This document shows, one piece after another, positions 4,847-31,434 of a stretch of DNA of 34,595 bases. Where the stretch lies: assembly GCA_902787185.1 (NCBI GenBank), contig CADAFP010000032.1, positions 1-34,595 on the forward strand, in the 5' to 3' direction. The notes below the pieces were generated by a model. The model was not told where the DNA came from and did not search any database. It saw nothing but the letters and a program-made list of their open reading frames with translations. The position numbers and the translations under genes were made by a program. Each line of letters opens with the position of its first letter. Position 1 is the stretch's first letter. This stretch comes from an uncultured Bacteroidales bacterium. Lineage in GTDB: Bacteria > Bacteroidota > Bacteroidia > Bacteroidales > Muribaculaceae.

Positions 4847-6045
4847 ATGAAAGCATTAATGTTTGGTTGGGAATTTCCACCGCACATCCTGGGAGGACTG
4901 GGAACAGCAAGTTATGGACTCACCAAGGGCATGTGGGAAAATGGTGACATGGACATCACCTTTGTCATCCCCAAGCCCTGGGGCGACGAGCCCAAGGAAT
5001 TTGCCCATATCATCGGTGCGAACTGCACCCCGGTGGCCTGGCGCGACGTGAACGGGGACTACGTGCAGAGCCGCATCGGTGATGTGATGGACCCGCAGAT
5101 GTACTACAACCTGCGTGACCACATCTATGGCGACTTTAACTACATGAGTACCAACGACCTGGGATGCATCGAGTTTTCAGGCCGCTACCCCGAGAACCTG
5201 CTCGAGGAAATCAACAATTACAGCATCGTGGCGGGAGTCATTGCCCGCACGGTGGACTGTGACGTCATCCACAGCCACGACTGGCTTACCTACCCTGCCG
5301 GCATCCACGCCAAGCAGGTGACGGGCAAGCCGCTGGTCATTCACGTGCATGCCACCGACTTTGACCGCTCGCGTGGCAACGTCAACCCCACGGTGTTCAG
5401 CATCGAGAAGGACGGCATGAACAACGCCGACCACATCATCACCGTGAGCAACCTGACGCGCCGCACCGTCATCGAGAAATGCTCAACCTGGAGGCCCCTC
5501 CGGGCAAGACGAACAAGGTCATCACCTTCTTGGGCCGCATCACGATGCAGAAGGGTCCTGAGTACTTCGTCGAAGCCGCCGCACAGGTGCTTCACAAGGT
5601 CAACAATGCCCAATTTGTCATGGCAGGCAGTGGCGACATGATGGACAAGATGATACGCCTGGCCGCCAAGCGTGACATCGCTGACCGTTTCCACTTCACC
5701 GGCTTCCTCAAGGGCAAGCAAGTGTATGAGATGCTTGCCGCCAGCGACGTGTATATCATGCCCTCGGTGAGCGAGCCGTTCGGCATCTCGCCGCTCGAGG
5801 CGATGCAGATGGGCGTGCCGTCGATTATCAGCAAGCAGAGCGGTTGCGCCGAGATTCTGGACAACGTCATCAAGATTGACTATTGGGATATCAATGCCAT
5901 GGCCGACGCCATCTACAGCATCATCGAGTATCCCGCTATGTATAACGAGTTGCGCGAGCAGGGCCTTGCCGAGGTTAACCAGATCACCTGGGACAAGGCA
6001 GGCGCCAAGGTGATAGACATCTACCGACGCTTAATCAACCGTTAG
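4847..6045 (+). pseudogene. Glycogen/starch synthase (GT-B fold), broken by an internal out-of-frame deletion
   Basis: The N-terminal part starts at ATG 4847 with MKALMFGWEFPPHILGGLG, the ADP-glucose synthase GGLG loop, and continues through HSHDWLTYPAG to NLTRRTVIEK. There the frame changes at about 5477-5480. The second frame resumes at about 5479 with LNLEAPPGKTNKVITFLGR and runs through EPFGISPLE (the E-x7-E motif) to a normal end at 6045. The joined product would be about 399 residues against roughly 420 from memory for relatives. The missing piece is the linker that normally carries a y/t-vhNAV-like segment. The lesion is therefore a loss of about 20-25 codons that is not a multiple of three, not a simple one-base slip. 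Upstream-frame translation ends out of frame at 5641. Natural pseudogene or assembly error are both possible. Confidence 0.82.
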
Positions 6046-6060
6046 CCGATTCACAGACCA

Positions 6061-6114
6061 TCTTGATTATCTAGACCATCTAGAGTTTCTAGACTATCTA
6101 GATTATCTAGAACT
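6061..6114 (+). repeat. Six tandem copies of a degenerate 9-bp unit, TCTAGAnnn
   Basis: Units begin at 6061, 6070, 6079, 6088, 6097 and 6106. The last five have exactly TCTAGA followed by three variable bases; the first is TCTTGATTA. Each TCTAGA is itself palindromic. The array fills the spacer between the synthase stop and the GH57 gene. Confidence 0.85.
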
Positions 6115-6158: not shown

Positions 6159-7946
6159 ATGAAAGCGATTTGTTTTTATTTCCAGATTCATCAGCCGTTC
6201 CGCCTGAAGCACTACCGCTTCTTTGACATCGGTAACGACCACTACTATTATGATGACTTTGCCGACGACGACATCATCACGCGCATCGCACAGCGGTCTT
6301 ATCTGCCCGCCAACGAGATGCTGCTCGACATGATTCGTGAGAACGGCAAGAAGTTCAAGGTGGCTTTCTCCATCAGCGGCACCGCATTAGAGCAACTGGA
6401 GCAGTATGTGCCCGAGTTCATCGACTCGATGAAGGAGTTGGCGGCAACAGGGTGCGTCGAGTTCCTCAGCGAGACCTATGCCCACAGCCTGTCGGCCATG
6501 TTTGACCCCGAGGAGTTCACCGCCCAGGTCAAAGCCCATGACGAGAAAATCTACCAGCTCTTCGGCCTGAAGCCCAAGGTGTTCCGCAACACCGAGCTCA
6601 TCTATGACGATGACATCGCTTCGATGGTCTATGCTATGGGATTCAAGGCCGCCATCACCGCCGACGCCAAGCACGTGCTGGGCTGGCGCTCGCCTAACTT
6701 CCTGTACAGTTCGGCTTCGGCACCCAAGCTCAAACTGCTGTTGAAGAACAGTAAGCTGAGTGACGACATCTCGTTCCGCTTCAGCAATCCCGAGTGGGCC
6801 GCCTATCCCCTCACCGCCGACAAGTATATCAACTGGATCAACGAGTTGCCCCAGGAGGAACAACTGGTGAACCTGTTTATGAACTATGACGCCTTCGGCG
6901 AGTTGCAGCCCCGCGAGAGCGGCATCTTTGAGTTCATGAAAGCGCTGCCCCGCTTTGCCGCCGAAAACGACATCCAGTTCTGGACGCCGAGTGAGGTCGT
7001 CTCCAAGTTCAAACCCGTTGCTGAATTGGCAGTGCCCTACCCCATGTCCTGGACCGACGAGGCTCGTGACACCAGCGCATGGCTGGGCAACACCTTGCAG
7101 CAGGAGGCCGTTAAGAAGCTGTACTCCATCGGTGAGCGCGTGCGCTTGTGCTCCGACCGCCGCATCAAGCAGGACTGGAACTATCTGCAAGCCAGCGACC
7201 ACTTCTTCTACATGTCCACCAAGCACAACGACGATGGCTCGGTACATAGCCACTACAGCCCCTATGACTCGCCCTACACTGCGTTCACCAACTATATGAA
7301 CGTGCTGAGCGACTTCATGACGCGTGTTGAGGAGCAGTACCCCACCAGCATCGACAACGAGGAGCTGAACTCGCTGCTGCTGACCATCCGCAACCAGGAG
7401 CAGGAAATCGAGAAACTGCACCGCGAGGTCGAGCTGATGCGCAACAACATCGTCAAGGACACCACCGGCGACTTCCCCATCGATGTGGAAGACATGCCTG
7501 CAGAGGCTCCGGTTATCGAGGCTCCTAAGCCTGAGGAGAAGCCGGCCCCCAAGAAAAAGGCGCCTGCTAAAAAGCCCGCGGCCAATGCAATAACAAGAAC
7601 CGTGGCAATAGGTCAAGTCCTGTTGTCACGGTTCCTTGTGTTATGCTGTTTCGTGATGCCGTCAATCGGGATTGGTGGGATTGAGGTAGTCACGCAGGGT
7701 CTCGACATAGTTCTCAAAGGCCTTGAGGCCTTCGGGGGTGATGCGGCACAGGGTGCAGGGGCGCTTGCCCTTGAACGTCTTTTCCACCGTGATATAGCCG
7801 GCTGTGGCAAGTTTGTCAAGTTGCACGCTCAGGTTTCCCGCCGTGGCGCCGGTCTGCTCCTTAATGAAGGGGAACTCGGCCGACTCGGCACCGATGAGCA
7901 GCGACATCACCGCCAACCGCAACTCGCTGTGCAACAATGGGTCTAA
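6159..7946 (+). CDS. GH57 family alpha-amylase with coiled-coil tail; annotated stop probably lost
   Basis: The first roughly 400 residues form a GH57 glycosidase: HQP at residues 11-13, the predicted nucleophile E146 in VFRNTELIYDDD, and the predicted acid/base D244 in FMNYDAFGE. A coiled-coil stretch (about 408-436) and a Pro/Lys/Ala-rich tail (to about 476) follow, as in Bacteroidales homologues. It likely hydrolyses or transfers alpha-1,4 glucan and belongs with the debranching enzyme and synthase. After about residue 477 the sequence loses amylase character and runs for about 118 codons across the whole reverse-strand regulator gene. An out-of-frame TAA at 7591-7593 lies exactly where the Lys/Ala tail should end, which suggests a small indel destroyed the native stop. 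The native product is probably about 478 residues. Confidence 0.88.
   Translation: MKAICFYFQIHQPFRLKHYRFFDIGNDHYYYDDFADDDIITRIAQRSYLPANEMLLDMIRENGKKFKVAFSISGTALEQLEQYVPEFIDSMKELAATGCVEFLSETYAHSLSAMFDPEEFTAQVKAHDEKIYQLFGLKPKVFRNTELIYDDDIASMVYAMGFKAAITADAKHVLGWRSPNFLYSSASAPKLKLLLKNSKLSDDISFRFSNPEWAAYPLTADKYINWINELPQEEQLVNLFMNYDAFGELQPRESGIFEFMKALPRFAAENDIQFWTPSEVVSKFKPVAELAVPYPMSWTDEARDTSAWLGNTLQQEAVKKLYSIGERVRLCSDRRIKQDWNYLQASDHFFYMSTKHNDDGSVHSHYSPYDSPYTAFTNYMNVLSDFMTRVEEQYPTSIDNEELNSLLLTIRNQEQEIEKLHREVELMRNNIVKDTTGDFPIDVEDMPAEAPVIEAPKPEEKPAPKKKAPAKKPAANAITRTVAIGQVLLSRFLVLCCFVMPSIGIGGIEVVTQGLDIVLKGLEAFGGDAAQGAGALALERLFHRDIAGCGKFVKLHAQVSRRGAGLLLNEGELGRLGTDEQRHHRQPQLAVQQWV
7594..7638. terminator. 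Stem-loop between convergent GH57 and regulator genes
   Basis: The arm starting CAAGAACCGTGGCAATAGG pairs with CCTGTTGTCACGGTTCCTTG, with one bulge and a few wobble pairs, around a 6-nt loop. It lies just after the out-of-frame TAA at 7591 and before the stop of the reverse gene, the normal place for a bidirectional terminator. No strong T-tract follows on the plus strand. Confidence 0.5.
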
Positions 7947-12300: not shown

Positions 12301-14922
12301 GCCGTAGCTACGAGAACCAACTCTTTGACCGGTTACCATGGCTCTTGGGCCAGCTGGACTGGACAGAGTATCCGAATTACCGACAATGTCTGGCCGTCAC
12401 TCCCCAGTCTTTACACCTACGGCCAGAAGTTCTTCGACTACGCCTTAGCCCTGGAAGAGGTGGTGGTTACAAGCTATGGAAGGACCAAATCCCTTTCGCT
12501 CAATAAGATGGCGGCTCCCATGGCTGTCAAAGTGGAGAGCAGATCGCTCAATGACATGGAATATATGGCAGCCGATGAAATGAAGGAAGAGAGGGAATTA
12601 GGAGTAGCTCAAGCTGCTGGTGCTGTCGAGGTCAACGAGAAGAATTTTGCCAAGGTGACCCTGCGTGAGAGTGACGTGAAGACCGCACTGTGGCAGCCGA
12701 TGCTCACCAGCGACGATAAGGGTAACATCAGCGTGGAGTTTGAGGCGCCCAACTTCAATACCACCTGGATTACCCAGGCCATAGCATGGGATGAGAAGAT
12801 GATTGGCTCGACCTGGATGGCAGAGGTATTGACCCAGAAGCCGCTGATGGTAAAGGCCAACATGCCGCGCTTCCTGCGTCAGGGCGACAAGGCGACGCTG
12901 GCCGCCACGGTACAGAATGCTACCAACGAGGCCGCCGCGTGTGACGCCATCATCGAGCTGTTCGATCCGCGCTCGGGCGACATCTTCGCCAGCCGCAAGT
13001 TCAATCTGCAATTGGGCGGCAACGGCAGCGAGGCGGTGACCATCGACTGGCAGGTGCCCGACACCATCGCCTTTGTGGGCTTCCGCATCAAGGCCGCCAA
13101 CGACCGCTTTGGTGACGGTGAGCAGGTGATGGTGCCCGTGCTGACGACCATTTCGCCCGTCATCGAGACCGAGCCGTTCTATATCGAGGCGGCGCAAGGG
13201 CATTACGAAGTAATGTTACCTAAGTTCCCCAAGGATGCCCGCGTGACGCTGGAATACTGCGATAACCCCGTATGGTACTGCGTGCTGGCGTTGCCCACCA
13301 TCTTCAGCGACGAGTACAACGTCGCCACCCATGCGGCACACAGCCTGTTTGCCCTGCAAGTGGCACAAGGCGTCGCCAAGTCGCAGCCTCAAATCAAGGA
13401 GGCGGTGACCTACTGGAAGCAGCACGATGAGGACAGCACCCTCGTGTCGATGCTCCAGAAGAACCAAGACCTGAAGATCGGCACCCTGCTGGCATCGCCG
13501 TGGATGCGCGAGGCCGACCGCCAGACGCTCAGGATGTCGAAGTTGAACGAACTCTTTGACGAGGCCATCGTCAAGAACGAGTACGAGAAAATCATCTCCG
13601 CCCTGCAGAATCTGCAGATGGGCGACGGCGGCTTCACCTGGTTCCGCCATCCCAGTTGCAAGTCCGACGTATGGACCACGGGCACCGTGTTGCAACTCGT
13701 GGGCGAAATCAAGCATCTTGGCTATCTGCCCGATGACGGTCGCCTGACGTCGATGATGAACCGTGCCCTCGCTTACTATGACAACGAGAATGTGCGCCTG
13801 TTCAACGAGTACAAGAAGTACTACAAGGAGCCTTACGGCAACTTCACCGAGTATGCCTACGTGCGCAGCCTCTACCCCGAAGTGAAGCAGCAATCCAAAG
13901 CCAGTGCCGACCTGTTCAAGAAGACAGTGAAGTATATGGACAAGAACTGGAACAAGGGTATCACCCTCAAGCAAAAGGCCTACTACGCCATGACGCTCAA
14001 CCGCAATGGCTACAGCAAGACCGCCCGCAGCATCGTCGAGAGCATCCGCCAGTTTGCCATCGTGAAACCGTCGCTGGGCATGTATTGGGACAACCTGCAG
14101 ACTGGTTACGGCTGGTGGGAGTTTGACAAGGTGGCTTACACCAGCACCATCCTGCAGGCCATGAACGAGGTCGATCCCCGTCAGCAGGAGATAGACCTGG
14201 TGCGCAAGTGGATGCTGCTGATGAAGCAGAGCAACGACTGGGGCTCTTGCAGCCTCGCCGCCGATGCCGTTTACAGCATCCTGAGCACTGGCAGCCAGTG
14301 GCTCGAGCGTGGCACCACTCCCGTTATCACGGTTGCCGGGCAGCCCGTCAACCTGGACAAGATGGCGCAGTGGCTGGGCTACTTCCGCACCAGCCTGCCC
14401 GCCACCACCGTTGGTAGCGTGGTTATTGACCGAACGGGCAAGGGTCCCGCCTGGGGCGCTGTCTATAGCCAGTTCAAGGCTCCGATGACCGAAATCAAGG
14501 AAAAGGCCATCGAGGAGGTGTCCATCAGCAAGGAATACTACGTCTATGCCCAAGACGGCACCCTGCATCAAGCCACGTCGTTCAAGGTGGGCGACAAGGT
14601 CAAGGTGCGTGTCGTCATCAAGACCAACAAGGACATGGACTTCGTGACCATGACCGACGAACGCGCCGCCTGCTTTGAGCCGGTAGATCAGCTCTCAGGC
14701 TACCGCAGCGAAGACAACACCTGGTTCTATCAGGAGACCAAGGACACTCAGACCAACGTGTTCATCAACAGCCTAAGTAAGGGCACGCACATCATCGGAT
14801 ATGACGTGTGGGTGACCAATCCCGGCGAGTTCACGTCGGGCATTGCCACCATCCAGTGCCAGTATGCCCCGCAATTGAGTGCCCACAGCGCCGGCAAGAC
14901 CATCTTTACTACCCAAAAGTAG
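9301..14922 (+). CDS. Alpha-2-macroglobulin family protein, thioester-less, with TonB-box-like motif
   Basis: This 1873-residue protein begins with a signal peptide (MKQTIIHILSIVLLIMAIPF). An N-terminal helical region is followed by a macroglobulin domain with the family motif TDLGVYRPGETIHW (from about 506). The A2M domain includes TSDDKGNISVEFEAPNFNTTW (about 1135-1155). An alpha/alpha toroid includes GDGGFTWFRHPS (about 1440), and a C-terminal receptor-binding-like domain ends the protein. The expected CxEQ thioester before the toroid is absent; the corresponding region reads YCDNPVWYCVLALP, so it is of the YfaS-like non-thioester type. Residues 1051-1061, LEEVVVTSYGR, resemble the SusC/TonB-box plug start. 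It probably traps proteases in the periplasm or at the surface. An in-frame GTG at 9295 is an alternative start. A strong terminator follows. Confidence 0.9.
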   Translation: MKQTIIHILSIVLLIMAIPFNTSGSNKDIDFNFPQDVSKQALTDLDKALKSGDGEMTVDALVRYSVAQSGISQDNMADIISRVEAVIGKEKQPHFRALLRHLEAMIYQGYRNRYARWSDRSNPVEETPTDISEWDRKQFDRKITELIKQSLAEPEALKQVAVTSLPDIIKCNELGATYVPTLHEFLLMKGLEMTQEIEQEDESLAEGIKADWLATTEGNVPAHIYALTEIKPSFSLETYQKYQDNEHCAYLLRHMAWENDKVQYKTLQEYATRFPNAIYTPEVKNQITQLESKNVHLYYPEVRSSHDSITVTANVRNANTFTIEVYRVPEQEFNKNNYRIDKKLLQLVSTHTVNVQGNVPFDENDIVTTLPPLPYGAYIISPDLETGKTADPDVYRRDILHVTDMALFTISRDDHKDLIAAVDLNTGKPLSGVTIISNSKTKTTLGTTGTDGTLAITSRTDAKGRNVSDYHGVLTAIKGTDRYSQPIYYNTLDHRSYSNNTAEVYTDLGVYRPGETIHWAALVYNATDKSRRVLTGKSIEAIFMDSNCEPIDTLTLTTDDYGRIEGSFLVPKDRMNGRFLIQLQEKDRRSNSLAWHSVIVSEYKTPTFEVTFPDARRSYVAGQPVKVTGKAMTYSGLPVQNTEVKLSLIKNEWSWWWWRMNNRDGEHLMDTTVMTDGQGNFTIEFPAEIFKENKDFKPGRRFYWARYNYEVKATVTTDAGETHEESTSFIVGTRRGIELGVEHNDIYLNDKPIKLPLKYNTTDEENPNTYCTWEITPIDGTVPVKTGNLNTADPTIDLTDLPSGQYKLRIHILDAEEGEQDVDVERVITLYRKTDKTAPVKDCPLWLTPLQQSVDKKNVGHITIGVSTPKAYIYYVASTADKVIAQGWLTYDKGMHDFTVLLPNEAGKDVTVTFISHYGTKLWQESVTLQNPYLAEAIKITATSFRDKLVPGNMEHWSFTLTDQNGKPHQGAMLLDMFDKAIASIEGNDWTFSNWRPSYYAVATRTNSLTGYHGSWASWTGQSIRITDNVWPSLPSLYTYGQKFFDYALALEEVVVTSYGRTKSLSLNKMAAPMAVKVESRSLNDMEYMAADEMKEERELGVAQAAGAVEVNEKNFAKVTLRESDVKTALWQPMLTSDDKGNISVEFEAPNFNTTWITQAIAWDEKMIGSTWMAEVLTQKPLMVKANMPRFLRQGDKATLAATVQNATNEAAACDAIIELFDPRSGDIFASRKFNLQLGGNGSEAVTIDWQVPDTIAFVGFRIKAANDRFGDGEQVMVPVLTTISPVIETEPFYIEAAQGHYEVMLPKFPKDARVTLEYCDNPVWYCVLALPTIFSDEYNVATHAAHSLFALQVAQGVAKSQPQIKEAVTYWKQHDEDSTLVSMLQKNQDLKIGTLLASPWMREADRQTLRMSKLNELFDEAIVKNEYEKIISALQNLQMGDGGFTWFRHPSCKSDVWTTGTVLQLVGEIKHLGYLPDDGRLTSMMNRALAYYDNENVRLFNEYKKYYKEPYGNFTEYAYVRSLYPEVKQQSKASADLFKKTVKYMDKNWNKGITLKQKAYYAMTLNRNGYSKTARSIVESIRQFAIVKPSLGMYWDNLQTGYGWWEFDKVAYTSTILQAMNEVDPRQQEIDLVRKWMLLMKQSNDWGSCSLAADAVYSILSTGSQWLERGTTPVITVAGQPVNLDKMAQWLGYFRTSLPATTVGSVVIDRTGKGPAWGAVYSQFKAPMTEIKEKAIEEVSISKEYYVYAQDGTLHQATSFKVGDKVKVRVVIKTNKDMDFVTMTDERAACFEPVDQLSGYRSEDNTWFYQETKDTQTNVFINSLSKGTHIIGYDVWVTNPGEFTSGIATIQCQYAPQLSAHSAGKTIFTTQK

Positions 14923-17413: not shown

Positions 17414-18478
17414 ATGAGTGACCTTCATACTACACTTATACAGAACAAACGCATAGAATACATTGACGCCTTAAGGGGTTTTGTAATGTTTCTGGTTGTT
17501 TTCAATCATATGGCAGGGTATTGCTGGCATATTAAAGAAATGGGAATTTCTTTTCACGACCGCCTAGAAGAATTGCAGATGCCAATGTTTTTTTTCATTA
17601 GTGGCTTTGTTTCGTTCAAGCCCAACTTAGTATGGAATGGTCGTCAAGTAATCAGTTTATTGAAAAAAAAGTTCCCTTTATTAATGATTTCACCTTTCTT
17701 TTTCTTTTTACCATACTTGCAATTTGAGAAAATTGCGTTTTACGATGGCATAACTGATACTTTCAAAGTAGGATATTGGTTCACTTTTGTTTTATTTCTG
17801 TTCTTTGCTATTTATACTCTCATCAGATTCTTGTTCAGGAATCGATGGATTGCTACTGTTATATCGCTTGTTTTAGGCCTTTTCTTACACTACATCATTT
17901 ACCAGCCAATATATAATGCCATCCCGCTTTCAGCAGATGCCAAGGGTTTTCTTTCACTTTATACCTGGATATATTTTATCTATTTTGCTTTAGGAGCTAT
18001 CGCGAGAGAACATCTACTAAAATTTGAAAAACTTCTTGACAGCAAATGGCTTCTACCATCATGCATAATGATTTACTTTTTATTAATTATTTATAAGAGC
18101 TATTTTAATTCGGGCATCACAATCATACCCGTTACCATCACGGGTTTGATCGTCCTTTTTTCATTTTTCAGAATCTATCAATCTCACTTTACCAAAGAAC
18201 ATGCCCTTGGCAGAACATTACAGTTTATGGGCCGCAGGACTCTTGATATCTATTGGATACATTTCTTTTTCATACCAGTTAATTTAACCTTTGTAACGGT
18301 ATTTCGTGAGCACCCGATGCCTGTTATCGAAGCTGGAGTATCGTTTGTCATAGCCAGCATCATTATCGCTTGTAGTCTTTTCATCGGTAGTACCATCCGC
18401 CTTAGTCCTATACTTGCCCATTGGTTGTTCGGTGAAAAGATAAAACCAAAGAAATCCCAAACCACAACCAATCAGTAA
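17414..18478 (+). CDS. Acyltransferase 3 family membrane protein
   Basis: This 354-residue protein opens with RIEYIDALRGFVMFLVVFNHM (from about residue 13), the characteristic start of the acyltransferase 3 family (OafA/NodX/WecH type), and then has about ten hydrophobic helices. These enzymes transfer acetyl or other acyl groups to sugars or lipids at the membrane; the acceptor here is unknown. The C-terminal tail KIKPKKSQTTTNQ is basic and polar. The gene is visibly richer in A/T, with different codon choice from the flanking ABC-F and GNAT genes, suggesting a separate origin. The GNAT gene starts 6 nt downstream, so they may be co-transcribed. Confidence 0.88.
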   Translation: MSDLHTTLIQNKRIEYIDALRGFVMFLVVFNHMAGYCWHIKEMGISFHDRLEELQMPMFFFISGFVSFKPNLVWNGRQVISLLKKKFPLLMISPFFFFLPYLQFEKIAFYDGITDTFKVGYWFTFVLFLFFAIYTLIRFLFRNRWIATVISLVLGLFLHYIIYQPIYNAIPLSADAKGFLSLYTWIYFIYFALGAIAREHLLKFEKLLDSKWLLPSCIMIYFLLIIYKSYFNSGITIIPVTITGLIVLFSFFRIYQSHFTKEHALGRTLQFMGRRTLDIYWIHFFFIPVNLTFVTVFREHPMPVIEAGVSFVIASIIIACSLFIGSTIRLSPILAHWLFGEKIKPKKSQTTTNQ

Positions 18479-23963: not shown

Positions 23964-24026
23964 ACTTGAAACTAAAGACTAGAAACTAAGGACTAAGGAC
24001 TAGGGACTAGATACTAAGGACTAAAA
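23964..24026 (+). repeat. Nine tandem degenerate 7-bp units (ACTARRR) upstream of the kinase-RapZ gene
   Basis: Units start every 7 nt from 23964 to 24020. Consensus is ACTA followed by three purines, mostly ACTAAGG, with ACTAGGG, ACTAGAA, ACTAAAA and ACTTGAA variants. The last unit ends 9 nt before ATG 24036, so it also occupies the ribosome-binding region. Confidence 0.9.
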
Positions 24027-24035
24027 ACGATAGCA

Positions 24036-25499
24036 ATGGAAAGACTCAGAAGACTATATGAACAATATGTGGGCAGTGAGCCCACCGAAATCGTCCTCAT
24101 GGACAAGGCGGGCTCTAACCGCCAGTACTACCGCCTTCACGGCGAGCGCCCCATCGTCGGCGTCATCGGCGAGGCACGCGAGGAGAACGACGCGTTCATC
24201 TACATGGCGCGCCACTTCCGCGAACGTGGATTGTCGGTGCCCGAGGTTTATGGCGTGAGCGACGACCACATGGCCTATATCCAAGAGGACCTGGGCAAAA
24301 AGCCCGAGAACATCTTGTGGAACAAGATTCGCCGCAGTTCCATCACCCATGCCTTCACCAGCGAGGAAAAGGAACTGCTGCGCCGCACCATGCGCGACCT
24401 GGTGGACATCCAGTTCCGCGGGGCAGAAGGCTTTGACTACAACAACTGCTACCCCGCCAAGTGCTTTGACGAGCGCTCCATCAAGTGGGACCTGAACTAT
24501 TTCAAATACTGTTTCCTCAAGGCCACAGGCATCATCTTTAACGAGGACAAGTTGGAGAACGACTTTGAGCGCTTGACCCATGACCTGCTGGCGGTGCCCA
24601 GCGAGACGTTCATGTACCGCGACTTCCAGTCCCGCAATGTGATGCTCGTGGGCGATGCCGACCATCCCGCCGACTGCAAACTGGCGTTCATCGACTTCCA
24701 GGGCGGGCGCAAGGGCCCGTTCTACTACGACGTGGCATCATTTGTGTGGCAATCGCGCGCCAAATATCCTGACGACCTGAAGAAAGACCTCGTCGAGGCC
24801 TACTTGCAGAAACTCAAGCAGTACTTGCCCGACCTTGACGAGAAGGAATTCTATAATAACCTGCGCCTGTTTGTGCTGTTCCGCACCTTGCAGGTGCTGG
24901 GAGCCTACGGTTTCCGCGGCTACTTTGAGAAGAAGCCCGACTTTATGAAAAACAGCATTGTTCCCGCTGTCGCCAACCTGCGCAAGCTGGTGGTGGACCA
25001 TCCGTTTACCCAGTATCCCTACCTGAGCCTCGTCATCGATGAGCTGGTGAACCTCAAGGATTTCGTCAGCGAGGACAAAGGTCTGACCGTCAGGGTGATG
25101 AGCTTTGCCTATAAGAAAGGCATTCCCCACGACCCGTCGGGCAACGGTGGCGGTTTCGTGTTCGACTGCCGCGCCCTGAACAACCCGGGCAAATATGACA
25201 AGTACAAGGCATTCACGGGCCTCGACCAGAATGTGATTGACTTCCTGAAAAAGGAGAGCACCATCGACCAATGGCTGGAGCACGTCTATGCGCTGGTCGA
25301 TGAGTCGGTGGAACGTTACAAGAAACGCAGTTTCACCGACCTGATGGTATGCTTCGGCTGTACGGGCGGCCAGCACCGTTCGGTATATGCCGCCGAGCAT
25401 TTGGCCGAGCACATCCACAAGAAATTTAACGTGCGCGTCGAGTTGTCTCACCGCGAGCAGCCCGACCACGAACGCACCCTTAATCCCATAGACCGATGA
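24036..25499 (+). CDS. APH-type sugar kinase fused to RapZ C-terminal domain (AmgK-RapZC-like)
   Basis: This 487-residue protein is a two-domain fusion. Residues about 1-330 are an aminoglycoside-phosphotransferase-like kinase: catalytic block YRDFQSRN with D196 and N201, and metal-binding D220 in IDFQGGRKGPFYYD. The His of the usual HxD motif is Tyr here. Residues about 350-487 match the RNase adapter RapZ C-terminal domain: VMSFAYKKGIPHD, FDCRALNNPGKY and the hallmark GCTGGQHRS (441-449). The N-terminal Walker-type domain of RapZ is absent. Its stop overlaps the start of a MurU-like gene by 4 nt. AmgK and MurU form the cell-wall sugar salvage route in Pseudomonas, so a MurNAc/GlcNAc anomeric kinase is the best guess; the RapZ part may sense amino sugars. 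Confidence 0.88.
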   Translation: MERLRRLYEQYVGSEPTEIVLMDKAGSNRQYYRLHGERPIVGVIGEAREENDAFIYMARHFRERGLSVPEVYGVSDDHMAYIQEDLGKKPENILWNKIRRSSITHAFTSEEKELLRRTMRDLVDIQFRGAEGFDYNNCYPAKCFDERSIKWDLNYFKYCFLKATGIIFNEDKLENDFERLTHDLLAVPSETFMYRDFQSRNVMLVGDADHPADCKLAFIDFQGGRKGPFYYDVASFVWQSRAKYPDDLKKDLVEAYLQKLKQYLPDLDEKEFYNNLRLFVLFRTLQVLGAYGFRGYFEKKPDFMKNSIVPAVANLRKLVVDHPFTQYPYLSLVIDELVNLKDFVSEDKGLTVRVMSFAYKKGIPHDPSGNGGGFVFDCRALNNPGKYDKYKAFTGLDQNVIDFLKKESTIDQWLEHVYALVDESVERYKKRSFTDLMVCFGCTGGQHRSVYAAEHLAEHIHKKFNVRVELSHREQPDHERTLNPIDR

Positions 25500-26274: not shown

Positions 26275-26335
26275 TTTTTATAACCGCTTAAACTTTTTAG
26301 CATTGATTCCATCAAAACAACAGCTAAAACCAGAA

Positions 26336-26370
26336 ACTATATATTAGGGACTAAAAACTAGAAACTAAAT
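26336..26370 (+). repeat. Five degenerate 7-bp units (ACTARRR) ending at the FMN-binding gene start
   Basis: Units at 26336, 26343, 26350, 26357 and 26364 read ACTATAT, ATTAGGG, ACTAAAA, ACTAGAA and ACTAAAT. One or two weaker copies precede them. The last unit abuts ATG 26371, so there is no separate ribosome-binding site. It is the same unit type as the array at 23964-24026, on the other side of the kinase-nucleotidyltransferase pair. Confidence 0.8.
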
Positions 26371-26871
26371 ATGAAAAAGACCATCATCATTGCAGCCATC
26401 ATGCTGCTCGTGGCAGGCACCACTTCACTCGATGCCCGCACCAAGAAATCGGCTAAGTCCAAGAAGGCCAACACCACCCAAGTCATCTACACCGGCGACA
26501 TCGCCAGCAAGGTGATTGGCTACAACGGCACCACGCCGCTCAACATCACCGTCAAGAACGGCATTATCGAGAACATCGAGGTACTCCCCAACCAGGAGTC
26601 ACCTGCCTATCTCAAGCGCGCCAAGGAGAAAGTGCTGCCTCAATACATCGGCAAGAGCGTCGCCGAGGCCAAGAAACTTAAAGCCGACATCGCCACCGGT
26701 GCCACCTACACCAGCGAGGCCCTCATCAAGAACATCCAGATGGGACTCGATCAGTCCAAGTCGGGTGTGACCAAGAAGTCTGCCACTGCCAGCAAGGCTG
26801 TTAAGGGCAAGAAAAAAGCAAGCGTAAAGGAGAACAAGGCTGTCAAGAAAGCCGCCAAGAAACGCCGCTAA
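26371..26871 (+). CDS. Exported FMN-binding domain protein with lysine-rich tail
   Basis: This 166-residue protein has a signal peptide (MKKTIIIAAIMLLVAGTTSL). A single FMN-binding-type domain (about 38-125) contains D106-I-A-T-G-A-T-Y-T114, a match to the flavinylation motif Dxx(S/T)GATxT, where T112 would carry phosphodiester-linked FMN attached by ApbE. The C-terminal 40 residues are Lys/Ala-rich, of the histone-like type, and may be unstructured or bind envelope polymers. No other electron-transfer genes are adjacent, so its redox partner is unknown. A terminator follows at 26896. Confidence 0.78.
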   Translation: MKKTIIIAAIMLLVAGTTSLDARTKKSAKSKKANTTQVIYTGDIASKVIGYNGTTPLNITVKNGIIENIEVLPNQESPAYLKRAKEKVLPQYIGKSVAEAKKLKADIATGATYTSEALIKNIQMGLDQSKSGVTKKSATASKAVKGKKKASVKENKAVKKAAKKRR

Positions 26872-29322: not shown

Positions 29323-29420
29323 TGGCATAAATATTTAGGCAAGCCATGCAAGATTTCATAGGATGGTTGTTTAAAGGACAGAAACACCAATCACAACAAC
29401 CCTTTAAACAAGACAAGACT

Positions 29421-30680
29421 ATGAAGATTTTTTGGAAACCTATCCTGATGGCCTGCATGCTACTGGGCATGCTCACGGCATGCAGCGACGACAATGGGGA
29501 AGACGTGGTCGATATGCGCCTCCCCCAGTTAAGGCCTATCACCCTCACTGCCGAACAATGCAAGATGAGGGATAACAACAACGAGTTTGCCTGCCGACTG
29601 TTCCGCACCATCAACGAACAGAAAGAGGGCGACGGCAGCGTCATCGTGTCGCCCATCAGCGTGACCTACCTACTGGGCATGCTCAACACGGGCGCCGATG
29701 GCCAGACGCGCCAGCAAATCATTGATGTCCTGGGGCTGGGCAACAGCGTCCTGGAAGTCAACGAGTACTGCAAGAAGATGATTGACGAGGCACCACGGGT
29801 TGACCCCAGCGTGACCGTCAAGATTGCCAACTGCATCGACGTGAACTCGGCTCTGGGAATCACCCTCGTGCCGCAGTTCAAGACCTACATGCAGAATTAC
29901 TACAATGCCCAAATCGAGGCGCTGAACTTCGGCAAGAAAAGCAGCCTGGACAAAATCAACAACTGGTGCAAGAAGAACACCGACGGCATGATTCCCACCA
30001 TTCTTGACAAGCTCAATGCCAATGCCGCGATGTATCTGTTGAACGCTATCTACTTCAAGGCGACGTGGACCGATAAGTTTGACCCCAAGGACACCCGCGA
30101 CATGGACTTCACCATGCCCGACGGCTCGACCCGCCAGCACAAGATGATGCACCGCAAGGCATTGGCTGCCTACGGCAAGAACGACCTGTGCGAGATGCTG
30201 TACCTGCCCTACGGCAGCGAAGGTTACGGCATGTATGTCCTGCTGCCTGTCGAGGGAAAGACCGTGGACGACGTCATCCAGGGCCTCTCGGCCGACGCAG
30301 TCAAGCAACAACTGTTTAACATGGATGACCATGTGGTGGATATCCTGATGCCACGCTTCACCACGAGCAGCGAGACCATACTCAACGAGGTCCTCTCATC
30401 GATGGGTATGCCACTGGCCTTCAGTCCCTATGCTGAATTTCCCAATATGGCCCAGGGCCAGAACCTCTGCGTGTCGATGATGAAGCAGAAAGCCAGAATC
30501 GAGGTCAATGAGGAGGGTACCAAGGCATCGGCTGTGACCATCGCCGAGATGGATGTGACCGCCCCACCACCCCAGCAATACCAGCGTGTGGACTTCCACG
30601 CCACGCGTCCCTTTGTCTATTACATCATCGAGAACAGCACCCGCTCCATCTTCTTCATGGGAACCTATTGCGGGAGTTGA
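29421..30680 (+). CDS. Serpin family protease inhibitor, predicted surface lipoprotein
   Basis: This 419-residue protein starts with a lipoprotein signal ending LTAC21, followed by SDDNGED. This acidic stretch after the lipid cysteine resembles the Bacteroidetes signal for export to the cell surface. The serpin body follows, including FACRLFRTINEQ, NAIYFKATWTDKF and the terminal FVYYIIENSTRSIFFMG. The hinge EEGTKASAVT (about 364-373) has the small residues of inhibitory serpins, so it probably traps a protease by loop insertion. Standard numbering puts P1 near Thr-380 (EMDVTAPPP); the target is unknown. Relatives in gut bacteria inhibit host or bacterial proteases. The start at 29421 gives the lipoprotein signal; an upstream in-frame start at 29346 is less likely. 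Confidence 0.93.
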   Translation: MKIFWKPILMACMLLGMLTACSDDNGEDVVDMRLPQLRPITLTAEQCKMRDNNNEFACRLFRTINEQKEGDGSVIVSPISVTYLLGMLNTGADGQTRQQIIDVLGLGNSVLEVNEYCKKMIDEAPRVDPSVTVKIANCIDVNSALGITLVPQFKTYMQNYYNAQIEALNFGKKSSLDKINNWCKKNTDGMIPTILDKLNANAAMYLLNAIYFKATWTDKFDPKDTRDMDFTMPDGSTRQHKMMHRKALAAYGKNDLCEMLYLPYGSEGYGMYVLLPVEGKTVDDVIQGLSADAVKQQLFNMDDHVVDILMPRFTTSSETILNEVLSSMGMPLAFSPYAEFPNMAQGQNLCVSMMKQKARIEVNEEGTKASAVTIAEMDVTAPPPQQYQRVDFHATRPFVYYIIENSTRSIFFMGTYCGS

Positions 30681-30724
30681 CAGGGAACAGGGAACAGTGA
30701 ATAGTTAACAGTTAACAGTTAACA
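30676..30724 (+). repeat. Seven degenerate 7-bp units (GTTAACA) starting at the serpin stop codon
   Basis: Units begin at 30676 (GTTGACA, containing the TGA stop), then GGGAACA twice, GTGAATA, and GTTAACA three times, ending at 30724. Positions 30697-30717 form a perfect 21-nt inverted repeat with 30815-30835. Confidence 0.9.
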
Positions 30725-30745
30725 GGCAGTAGATGATATGAATTA

Positions 30746-30777
30746 AAAAGTAGCCGAGGGAATCCTTGGCTACTTTT
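30746..30777. terminator. Bidirectional terminator between serpin and adhesin-E-like genes
   Basis: AAAAGTAGCC (30746-30755) and GGCTACTTTT (30768-30777) pair perfectly. The stem extends inward through four more pairs (one G-T wobble) to a GAAT loop, with A and T tracts serving both strands. Inverted heptad arrays flank it. Confidence 0.92.
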
Positions 30778-30786
30778 CTATTTAAC

Positions 30787-30842
30787 TTATATCTGTTATC
30801 TATTAACTATTCACTGTTAACTGTTAACTATTCACTGTTAAC
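30787..30842 (-). repeat. Eight degenerate 7-bp units (GTTAACA on the reverse strand)
   Basis: On the plus strand, units start at 30787, 30794, 30801, 30808, 30815, 30822, 30829 and 30836, with TGTTAAC, TATTCAC, TATTAAC, TGTTATC and TTATATC variants. The array abuts the stop codon of the reverse-strand gene at 30843. It is the same unit as the array at 30676-30724, in opposite orientation. Confidence 0.9.
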
Positions 30843-31292
30843 TTATTCGGGGTTGGTGGTGATCTCGTAGATGACTTTGGCATTCTCGGCAATCATTTCG
30901 ATGGGAGAGCCTGGGGTGACATAGCTCTCGGTCGCTGCCATGTCGGTATTGGTGTATTGGTCGATGGGCACACCGTCCTCACCATAGACCGCCACCTGAA
31001 CGATATTGAATTTTTTCCACTTCTCTGTGAATTTATAAAGCGTCAGCTTATAGGCCACGGGCTTGTCGTAACCGCGGTCACGGGAATACTCTGCCCGAGA
31101 CTCAGGCAGGTCAAATGAATTGCGCACCCACACCAGGTAGCTCGCGCCGTTGTCGGTCATCGAGATGTCTTGATTCACAGCGATGGATTCACCACCGGTT
31201 GACAGGACGGTAAACCAGTCGTTTGCATGAGCGCCAGGGGCGGCAAACAGTAACGCCACAAGCGCTACCAGCGTCAAAAACAGTCTTTTCAT
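30843..31292 (-). CDS. Small secreted protein, surface-adhesin E-like fold
   Basis: This 149-residue protein has a signal peptide (MKRLFLTLVALVALLFAAPGAHA). The mature part starts with DWFTVLSTGGESIAVNQDI, continues with YLVWVRNSF and a YKLTLYKFTEKWKKFNIVQ stretch, and ends with VTPGSPIEMIAENAKVIYE. This layout resembles the adhesin_E family (Haemophilus protein E): Trp near the start, a vWv strand and a terminal PGS-x-xE motif. The cysteines of that family are missing. I make the family call tentatively; the role is unknown. The promoter at 31324-31355 supports the start at 31292. Confidence 0.65.
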   Translation of the reverse strand: MKRLFLTLVALVALLFAAPGAHANDWFTVLSTGGESIAVNQDISMTDNGASYLVWVRNSFDLPESRAEYSRDRGYDKPVAYKLTLYKFTEKWKKFNIVQVAVYGEDGVPIDQYTNTDMAATESYVTPGSPIEMIAENAKVIYEITTNPE

Positions 31293-31323
31293 TGTCTTTT
31301 TATCATTTATTGAAATATGCCCG

Positions 31324-31355
31324 CAAAGGTAGTGCAAGCCATGTGAAATGCCAAA
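31324..31355 (-). promoter_or_regulatory. Sigma-ABfr-type promoter of the adhesin-E-like gene
   Basis: The reverse strand reads TACCTTTG (complement of 31324-31331) with TTTG (complement of 31352-31355) 20 nt upstream, a close match to consensus. The leader is about 26 nt. Confidence 0.75.
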
Positions 31356-31434
31356 TATATTGTGTGAAATCATGCTGATTTTGATAATTTTTTGCCCCCC
31401 AAACACCTCTTTTTCTCAAAAAAGATACAAAAAA

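Follow-up and report, generated by a model that had tools for sequence, protein, structure and literature searches.

Mirrored heptad arrays around a terminator-like hairpin as probable arms of a dispersed AT-rich repeat family in a Muribaculaceae genome

The gap between a serpin-family gene and its convergent neighbor in an uncultured Bacteroidales bacterium (Muribaculaceae; contig CADAFP010000032.1, positions 1 to 34,595, the whole stretch analyzed and hereafter "the window") contained two opposed arrays of 7-bp units on either side of a hairpin. Analyses of this genome and of its relatives indicated that these arrays are real and orderly, but are not a device special to the terminator in this gap. 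Arrays of this kind were dispersed through the genome, with units almost always reading TTA-first away from the nearer gene boundary, and the inverted arrangement at the window junction follows from this rule, with nothing special to convergent genes. We consider it fairly likely that the two arrays are the arms of one copy of an AT-rich heptad family that occupies presumably transcribed gaps in a mirror layout, and that these arms were added around an older terminator.

The serpin-family gene (29346..30680, + strand; an ORF matching Pfam PF00079, E 4.7e-94) ended in a TGA codon (30678-30680) that, as read directly from the sequence, was inside the first unit of the left array (30676..30724, + strand). 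The seven units of this array were of the GTTAACA type, pointed away from the serpin stop and had the order GTTGACA, GGGAACA, GGGAACA, GTGAATA and three exact copies of GTTAACA. The right array (30787..30842, − strand) had eight units with the same polarity relative to the stop of its own gene. Its units, read on the minus strand from 30842 to 30787 and starting at the stop of the convergent gene (30843-30845), were GTTAACA, GTGAATA, GTTAACA twice, GTGAATA, GTTAATA, GATAACA and GATATAA. An earlier, sequence-only reading of the window had described these seven and eight opposed units, and both direct reading and Tandem Repeats Finder confirmed them. It had also reported exact complementarity between the arms over 21 nt, which was correct but an understatement, as the longest exact match between the arms was 27 nt (30693..30719, + strand, with 30813..30839, − strand). 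Matches of that length were reached by 3 of 89 unrelated pairs of GTTAACA-class arrays (both at least 35 nt) and, because the unit vocabulary is small, the match was just moderately unusual.

Between the arrays was an inverted repeat (30741..30782) whose arms (30741-30759 and 30764-30782) formed 18 pairs in the best local fold, with a hairpin energy of −22.4 kcal/mol. T-rich stretches were visible by eye beyond the stem on both strands (CTACTTTTCTATTT on the plus strand, CTACTTTTTAATT on the minus strand); the terminator pattern scan did not list the hairpin. We interpret this structure as a probable bidirectional intrinsic terminator, which is what the sequence-only reading had taken it for. 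The convergent gene (30843..31406, − strand) is an ORF whose first listed start gives a product of 187 aa, and searches of Pfam and NCBIfam identified no family match for it. Of 36 congeners, 17 had a match to it (a weak one in the genome G028, E 1.7e-4), whereas 24 other genomes had none. Because most relatives match from about residue 33-37 onward, the actual protein could be approximately 150 aa long.

To place the junction within its genome (G000; the other genomes carry further G-numbers), we sampled 40 stretches of 20 kb at preset round positions which, together with the window, amounted to 834,595 bp with 611 called genes, drawn from contigs C1-C20 and the window rather than from the whole genome. 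Genes were called with our own dicodon-model caller, which uses no start-site evidence, so distances to start codons are approximate; it missed a 354-aa ORF at 17414-18478 of the window. Three consecutive GTTAACA units with up to two mismatches were matched 121 times in the genome versus once in a reversed control. In a lag scan of the sample, arrays of period 7 were found in 98 intergenic and 2 coding locations, and the other lags from 4 to 13 gave at most 30 intergenic arrays each, with 88 at lag 14, the double of 7. The window junction thus has the features of a heptanucleotide simple-sequence repeat of the STRR/LSSR kind: head-to-tail 7-bp units, many genomic sites and a mainly intergenic location. 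Several unit classes coexisted, namely GTTAACA/GTTAATA/GTGAACA, GTTAGGA/GTTAGAA, TTTAGGC/ATTAGGC, GATTAGT and GATATTA, and before start codons ACTAAGG/ACTAGGG/ACTAGAA and CCTAAAA.

The arrays were mostly between co-directional genes and were rare between divergent ones, and samples of two congeners agreed with this. Arrays made up 6.7% of the gap bases in co-directional gaps of the genome, 4.1% in convergent gaps and 0.5% in divergent gaps. When gaps of at least 25 bp from G000, G009 and G033 were combined, 5 of 128 divergent gaps held an array versus 127 of 724 co-directional and convergent gaps (Fisher p 1.6e-5). Both arms were present in 32 gaps of the own-genome sample: 25 co-directional, 4 convergent (the window junction included; the sample had 60 convergent gaps that were 25 bp or longer) and 3 divergent. 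The 25 co-directional gaps with both arms show that the symmetric placement is not special to convergent genes.

The polarity of the arrays was largely consistent near stop and start codons. With unit classes defined by hand, the co-directional arrays near a stop codon in the own-genome sample included 31 in the TTA sense, none in the TAA sense and one tie; those near a start codon were TAA in 16 cases and TTA in one, with one tie; and convergent arrays were TTA in nine cases and TAA in none, again with one tie. Co-directional arrays close to both genes were divided (8 TTA, 8 TAA, 1 tie), and those close to neither were 4 TTA and 10 TAA. A leave-one-out k-mer score, which needs no hand-defined classes, placed near-stop arrays in one sense in 40 of 40 cases in G000, 14 of 14 in G009 and 10 of 11 in G033, and near-start arrays in the opposite sense in 12 of 18, 7 of 7 and 5 of 6, respectively; near-stop arrays therefore outnumbered near-start arrays in G000 by 40 to 18. 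The weaker near-start figure for G000 is probably due to the ACTAAGG class, which was common before starts and was not the reverse complement of any post-stop class. In co-directional gaps the ACTAAGG/ACTAGGG/ACTAGAA class was sense-oriented before start codons, unlike the mirror classes; it was seen once with the core (described below) reversed (locus L179, 19625-19770), and its reverse complement began a convergent array in locus L171.

Matches to four TTAG-type units numbered 384 in G000 (9 in its reversed control), with at least one in 24 of 36 congeners. Three GTTAACA-type units were matched in 19 of the 36 congeners and in one genome among 24 others. The reversed controls for these scans were not always empty: the TTAG scan of G004 gave 12 control and 0 real matches, and reversed controls of the GTTAACA scan gave 10 matches in G052 and 2 in G005. 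The array load across the 37 genomes of this one genus ranged from 0 to 384 matches. All 13 genomes with at least 55 matches carried an SbcC-like protein at least 42% identical to that of G000; five further genomes with such a protein had 0-6 matches, and G028, with 50 matches, had a distant SbcC-like protein.

The serpin and convergent genes were neighbors in ten congeners, and comparison of these orthologous junctions indicated that the hairpin and the arms have had different histories. A strong hairpin of differing sequence was present in the gap at 10 of 10 orthologous junctions (−19.7 to −34.5 kcal/mol; 11 of 11 when the window is included). Arrays were detected at 2 of the 10, on both sides in G009 and on one side in G002; short array remnants were visible by eye in G026 and G035, and none in the six others. 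G009 was the closest of the ten to G000, based on the identity of the serpin and of its partner. Its two arms differed from each other in their units, with GATATTA-type units on the serpin side and mostly GATTAGA-type units on the other, and next to the hairpin they were partly complementary (15 nt exact). As hairpins were found at all ten junctions and arrays at two, and as the units of G009 differed, we conclude that the arms turn over while the terminator-like hairpin stays. At the window junction, the central hairpin is therefore likely to be a bidirectional terminator of some age, to which arms that can be replaced were added recently.

Some arm sequence may nonetheless be older. The right arm and adjoining stem of G000 matched the left arm and stem of G009 over 20 nt, about half of which was hairpin stem, and the remaining combinations of G000 and G009 arms matched over 8-12 nt. 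Based on the 20-nt match, the arm sequence beside the hairpin may predate the split of G000 and G009. The hairpins of the two genomes aligned with a higher score in reverse complement (119.1 vs 99.6; core 57.5 vs 53.1), which would be explained equally well by the entire hairpin having been inverted in one genome relative to the other or by a palindromic ancestor.

In this family, TTA-type units (GTTAACA, GTTAGGA, TTTAGGC, GATTAGT) start from the gene boundary and point inward, and at the window junction the center of the gap would be the older bidirectional terminator hairpin. Based on these observations, we favor a course of events in which the arms would have grown later on both sides of this hairpin by gain, loss and slippage of 7-bp units, in gaps that are presumably transcribed, with template switching from arm to arm contributing. 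Such copying is likely at the window junction, where the arms are identical over 27 nt and the own partner was the best match among 32 right arms. The mirror polarity itself may have come from hairpin-based growth or from a palindromic seed, and growth would be limited by coding regions and, in divergent gaps, by promoters. We saw no transposition or slippage event directly. The arms would have at most a weak effect, on spacing or on RNA 3'-end structure, and are most likely tolerated rather than required; the arrays probably have no function or a minor one. At single loci, the window junction among them, they may act on RNA 3' ends, although the data do not call for such a role.

An alternative is that the mirrored arms are a functional RNA device, forming a long stem around a terminator or between cistrons that stabilizes 3' ends or blocks read-through, a role that has been proposed for other intercistronic palindromes; we consider this unlikely. 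The sequence-only reading had suggested that RNA from either strand could form a long stem around the terminator and had proposed folding of the region. When this was done, the RNA of the window junction folded into one long stem at −80.3 kcal/mol (shuffles −34.2 ± 3.8 kcal/mol; z −12.2; a fold this stable in 0 of 200 shuffles). Against mononucleotide-shuffled arms, the z-scores were −9.7 and −10.0 for the window gap on its two strands and −6.4 for the gap of G009. The avoidance of divergent gaps by the arrays would also suit such a device. However, in array gaps of 60-260 bp, own halves did not pair significantly better than swapped halves in any of three species (G000, n = 49, −14.77 own vs −13.31 swapped, p 0.06; G009, n = 21, −11.65 vs −12.45, p 0.73; G033, n = 15, −15.95 vs −14.62, p 0.17). 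Swapping the right half made the fold of the whole gap weaker in 26 of 49, 10 of 21 and 12 of 15 cases, respectively, of which the G033 figure favors a device. The same test can detect hairpins, since array-free gaps (80, 80 and 79) did pair better with their own partner in the three species (p 0.03, <0.0005 and <0.0005).

Direct alignment of the arms gave own partners only a slight advantage. Over all paired gaps, including the 3 divergent ones among the 32, the arm-to-arm alignment score was 409 for own partners and 353.8 ± 30.6 for permuted partners (p 0.043), and the window was one of three loci whose own partner was its best match. General RNA pairing of the arms was thus not supported by the swapped-arm controls in three species. 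Further points against a device are the arms having gone undetected at 8 of 10 orthologous junctions and the position of the second arm beyond the terminator, since a long arm-arm stem would then need read-through of that terminator. The strong stem at the window junction is partly a by-product of mirror polarity and a common unit vocabulary, with perhaps some arm copying.

A second alternative, which we regard as quite unlikely, is that a mobile palindromic REP/MITE-like element, with a core of GCGGATGCC and heptad arms, is spread by a Y1 transposase and seeds the arrays. Such a palindrome would automatically yield the mirror layout. The core GCGGATGCC was found 60 times in the sample versus approximately 6.4 expected, an expectation that assumes equal base frequencies and ignores codon bias; 33 of the 60 copies were intergenic and 20 were within 40 bp of an array. 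In addition, TGGCGGATGCCA occurred 22 times in G000 versus 0 in the reversed control. However, the window junction and many other loci had no core, the array-rich G035 had no TGGCGGATGCCA at all, and one palindromic element does not explain everything because the ACTAAGG class was not the reverse complement of the post-stop classes. A Y1 transposase (Y1_Tnp) was encoded in 35 of 37 genomes, and its relation to the number of arrays was weak (rho 0.34, p 0.037, uncorrected), which makes it a weak candidate for the driver. REP and BIME elements are intercistronic palindromes that are located in gaps between genes and are rare in divergent gaps. The AT-rich family is like them in this general description, but its arms are heptad arrays and it had no clear link to a transposase. 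The units GTTAGGC/GCCTAAC may resemble the core sites of integron attC sites, in which the inverse core comes before the core and which go together with an integron integrase, but the order of the units is opposite and they are tandem.

The core GCGGATGCC/GGCATCCGC was observed mid-array in both orientations at a number of paired arrays (e.g., L180 809-820 and L160 4395-4406), and the same or similar cores were seen in contigs of other MAGs, including L052 and L081. In the gap between the ExbB/TolQ-family and ExbD/TolR-family genes, the analysis covered 18 genomes out of 30 retrieved loci and detected arrays in 10 of them; array-like sequence that the detector missed was visible by eye in G023. 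The shared layout in this gap was TTAG-type units after the stop followed by AACTRA-type units up to the start codon, in some genomes with a core such as GCGGATGCC between them; the units differed by species and array-free gaps were 16-85 bp. The same layout in the same gap across many species could also reflect function. A further paired array in the own genome separated sbcD-like and sbcC-like genes, as a long palindromic heptad array with core GTTGGCGGATGCCAAC (L168, G000:C18:10001-30000, at 13432-13573). The SbcCD product cuts long hairpins.

The sequence-only reading had proposed that the two arrays at the window junction are an inverted duplication, that is, a one-off copying of one array across the hairpin. 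The 27-nt exact match, with the variant unit in order and a length reached by few unrelated pairs, and the own partner ranking first of 32 are consistent with this. The duplication is not needed to account for the layout, however, since polarity relative to gene ends is genome-wide, and the same polarity was found at loci with one arm or with unmatched arms. The different units in the two arms of G009, the nearest relative with the junction, and the 20-nt match between opposite arms of the two genomes also argue against it, and we regard a one-off event as very unlikely. Other convergent junctions with paired arrays, whose absence from related genomes the sequence-only reading had named as a refuting result, were found in the four sample gaps (window included), in the G009 ortholog and in L053, an unclassified and unrelated MAG. 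Lastly, we regard it as highly improbable, and reject it as the main cause, that the heptads, which give a stop in each frame every 21 nt, are kept as a ladder of back-up translation terminators, since, despite 0.89 sense stops per unit after stop codons versus 0.55 in shuffled arrays, antisense stops exceeded sense stops before start codons (0.90 vs 0.75), so sense stops are not what is kept, and many orthologous gaps had no arrays.

The dispersed heptad family is best called an AT-rich version of the known mirror-polarized heptad repeats of Xanthomonas and Nostoc, with the TAACTGA repeats alongside. Rehm et al. 2015 (PMC4692102) describe G-rich heptads, GGGAATC in Xanthomonas and GGGGA(C/T)T in Nostoc. 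The GGGAATC-type heptads were on the sense strand where they followed a stop at no more than 50 bp and on the antisense strand where they preceded an ORF, were under-represented between divergent ORFs and formed 70 and 75 inverted pairs in two Xanthomonas genomes. Both they and the AT-rich family comprise dispersed intergenic 7-bp arrays with mirror polarity, scarcity in divergent gaps, many inverted pairs and length and sequence that vary between species. In the AT-rich family we found mirror polarity (weakest near starts in G000) and divergent scarcity, but no GGG in each unit. The Rehm heptads are G-rich and form quadruplexes, whereas the AT-rich units mostly have no GGG. As described there, the Rehm heptads are mostly between the same genes in both species, at stabler loci, whereas the presence of AT-rich arrays at orthologous gaps changes fast, several of their unit classes coexist, and their arms often flank a hairpin core or terminator.

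The commonest near-stop units, TTTAGGC, TTTAGGT, ATTAGGA, GTTAACA and GTTAGGA, had no GGG; it was present, by exception, in both GGGAACA units of the window and in ACTAGGG, a unit of some pre-start arrays. As near-stop units mostly have no GGG tracts, quadruplexes are an unlikely cause of the polarity, and their formation seems not to be needed for it. AT-rich arrays having the polarity reported for G-rich ones makes G-quadruplexes unlikely as a general cause. The genus has orthologous gaps with and without arrays, and array birth and turnover can thus be traced species by species.

TAACTGA is a direct repeat described by MacGregor 2015 (PMC4679880), who reports AT-rich heptads in five Bacteroidetes. 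It is one base away from TAACTGT, which is GTTAACA complemented and rotated; the unit at the window junction is TAACTGT and its variants, not TAACTGA. In that report the sets are TAACTGA-forward before start codons, and one F. litoralis set directly behind a stop has the reverse orientation, in keeping with the polarity of the AT-rich family. The TAACTGA sets are mostly pre-start and, in that account, related heptamers are rarely repeated in the main genome; the AT-rich family differs in having dominant post-stop arrays, several classes and common paired arms. The same source cites Mrazek 2007 for the finding that, among long simple repeats, heptads are the most abundant class in most of the surveyed genomes. 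A literature search on such arrays and on the GTTAACA unit identified no description of this family among its best matches by title and abstract opening.

Exact (GTTAACA)3 was also found in named genome contigs, in at least 114 stretches. Among the matches listed, 83 were cyanobacterial by record title and the others were mainly Bacteroidota, Poribacteria, Bacillota and Gammaproteobacteria. The polarity count left out 21 arrays located at the end of a stretch (12 cyanobacterial, 9 other). STRR is the name given to cyanobacterial heptanucleotide repeats. These are likewise intergenic arrays of 7-bp units, and in the cyanobacterial stretches among the matches listed polarity was absent, with 29 TTA and 30 TAA arrays between co-directional genes. 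Hairpins between genes in STRR are noted in PMC2670836. Among the matches listed, 31 stretches were not cyanobacterial, and with the 9 end arrays dropped, 23 of their arrays were classified. A stop was no more than 30 bp away from 10 TTA arrays and 1 TAA array, and a start from 4 TAA and 0 TTA arrays. At L053, mirrored arrays adjoined the two stops of a convergent gene pair on either side of a central hairpin, the same arrangement that the window has. L052 and L074 were convergent in one gene calling and co-directional in the other, and their polarity fitted the rule both ways.

The AT-rich arrays reported here, this small non-cyanobacterial set and the reported G-rich arrays of Xanthomonas and Nostoc offer some support for a general, sequence-independent process, active in several phyla, by which gene boundaries set the polarity of heptad arrays, which we put forward tentatively and consider rather doubtful. 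If it were true, the polarity rule would come from growth of 7-bp arrays in hairpin-bearing gaps or from a common mobile seed, and not from quadruplexes or one regulator.

The window itself contained two more heptad arrays, at 23964-24028 and 26326-26369, which were found by Tandem Repeats Finder and are of the ACTAAGG/ACTAGAA class. The first stopped 7 bp short of a start codon at 24036 and the second 1 bp short of one at 26371, and both resemble the pre-start arrays found across the genome. Period 9 was the commonest intergenic period apart from 7 and 14, with 30 intergenic and 17 coding arrays, and a nine-base array of the AGACTATCT type was present at 6055-6111 of the window, after a gene that ends at 6045 and before one that starts at 6159.
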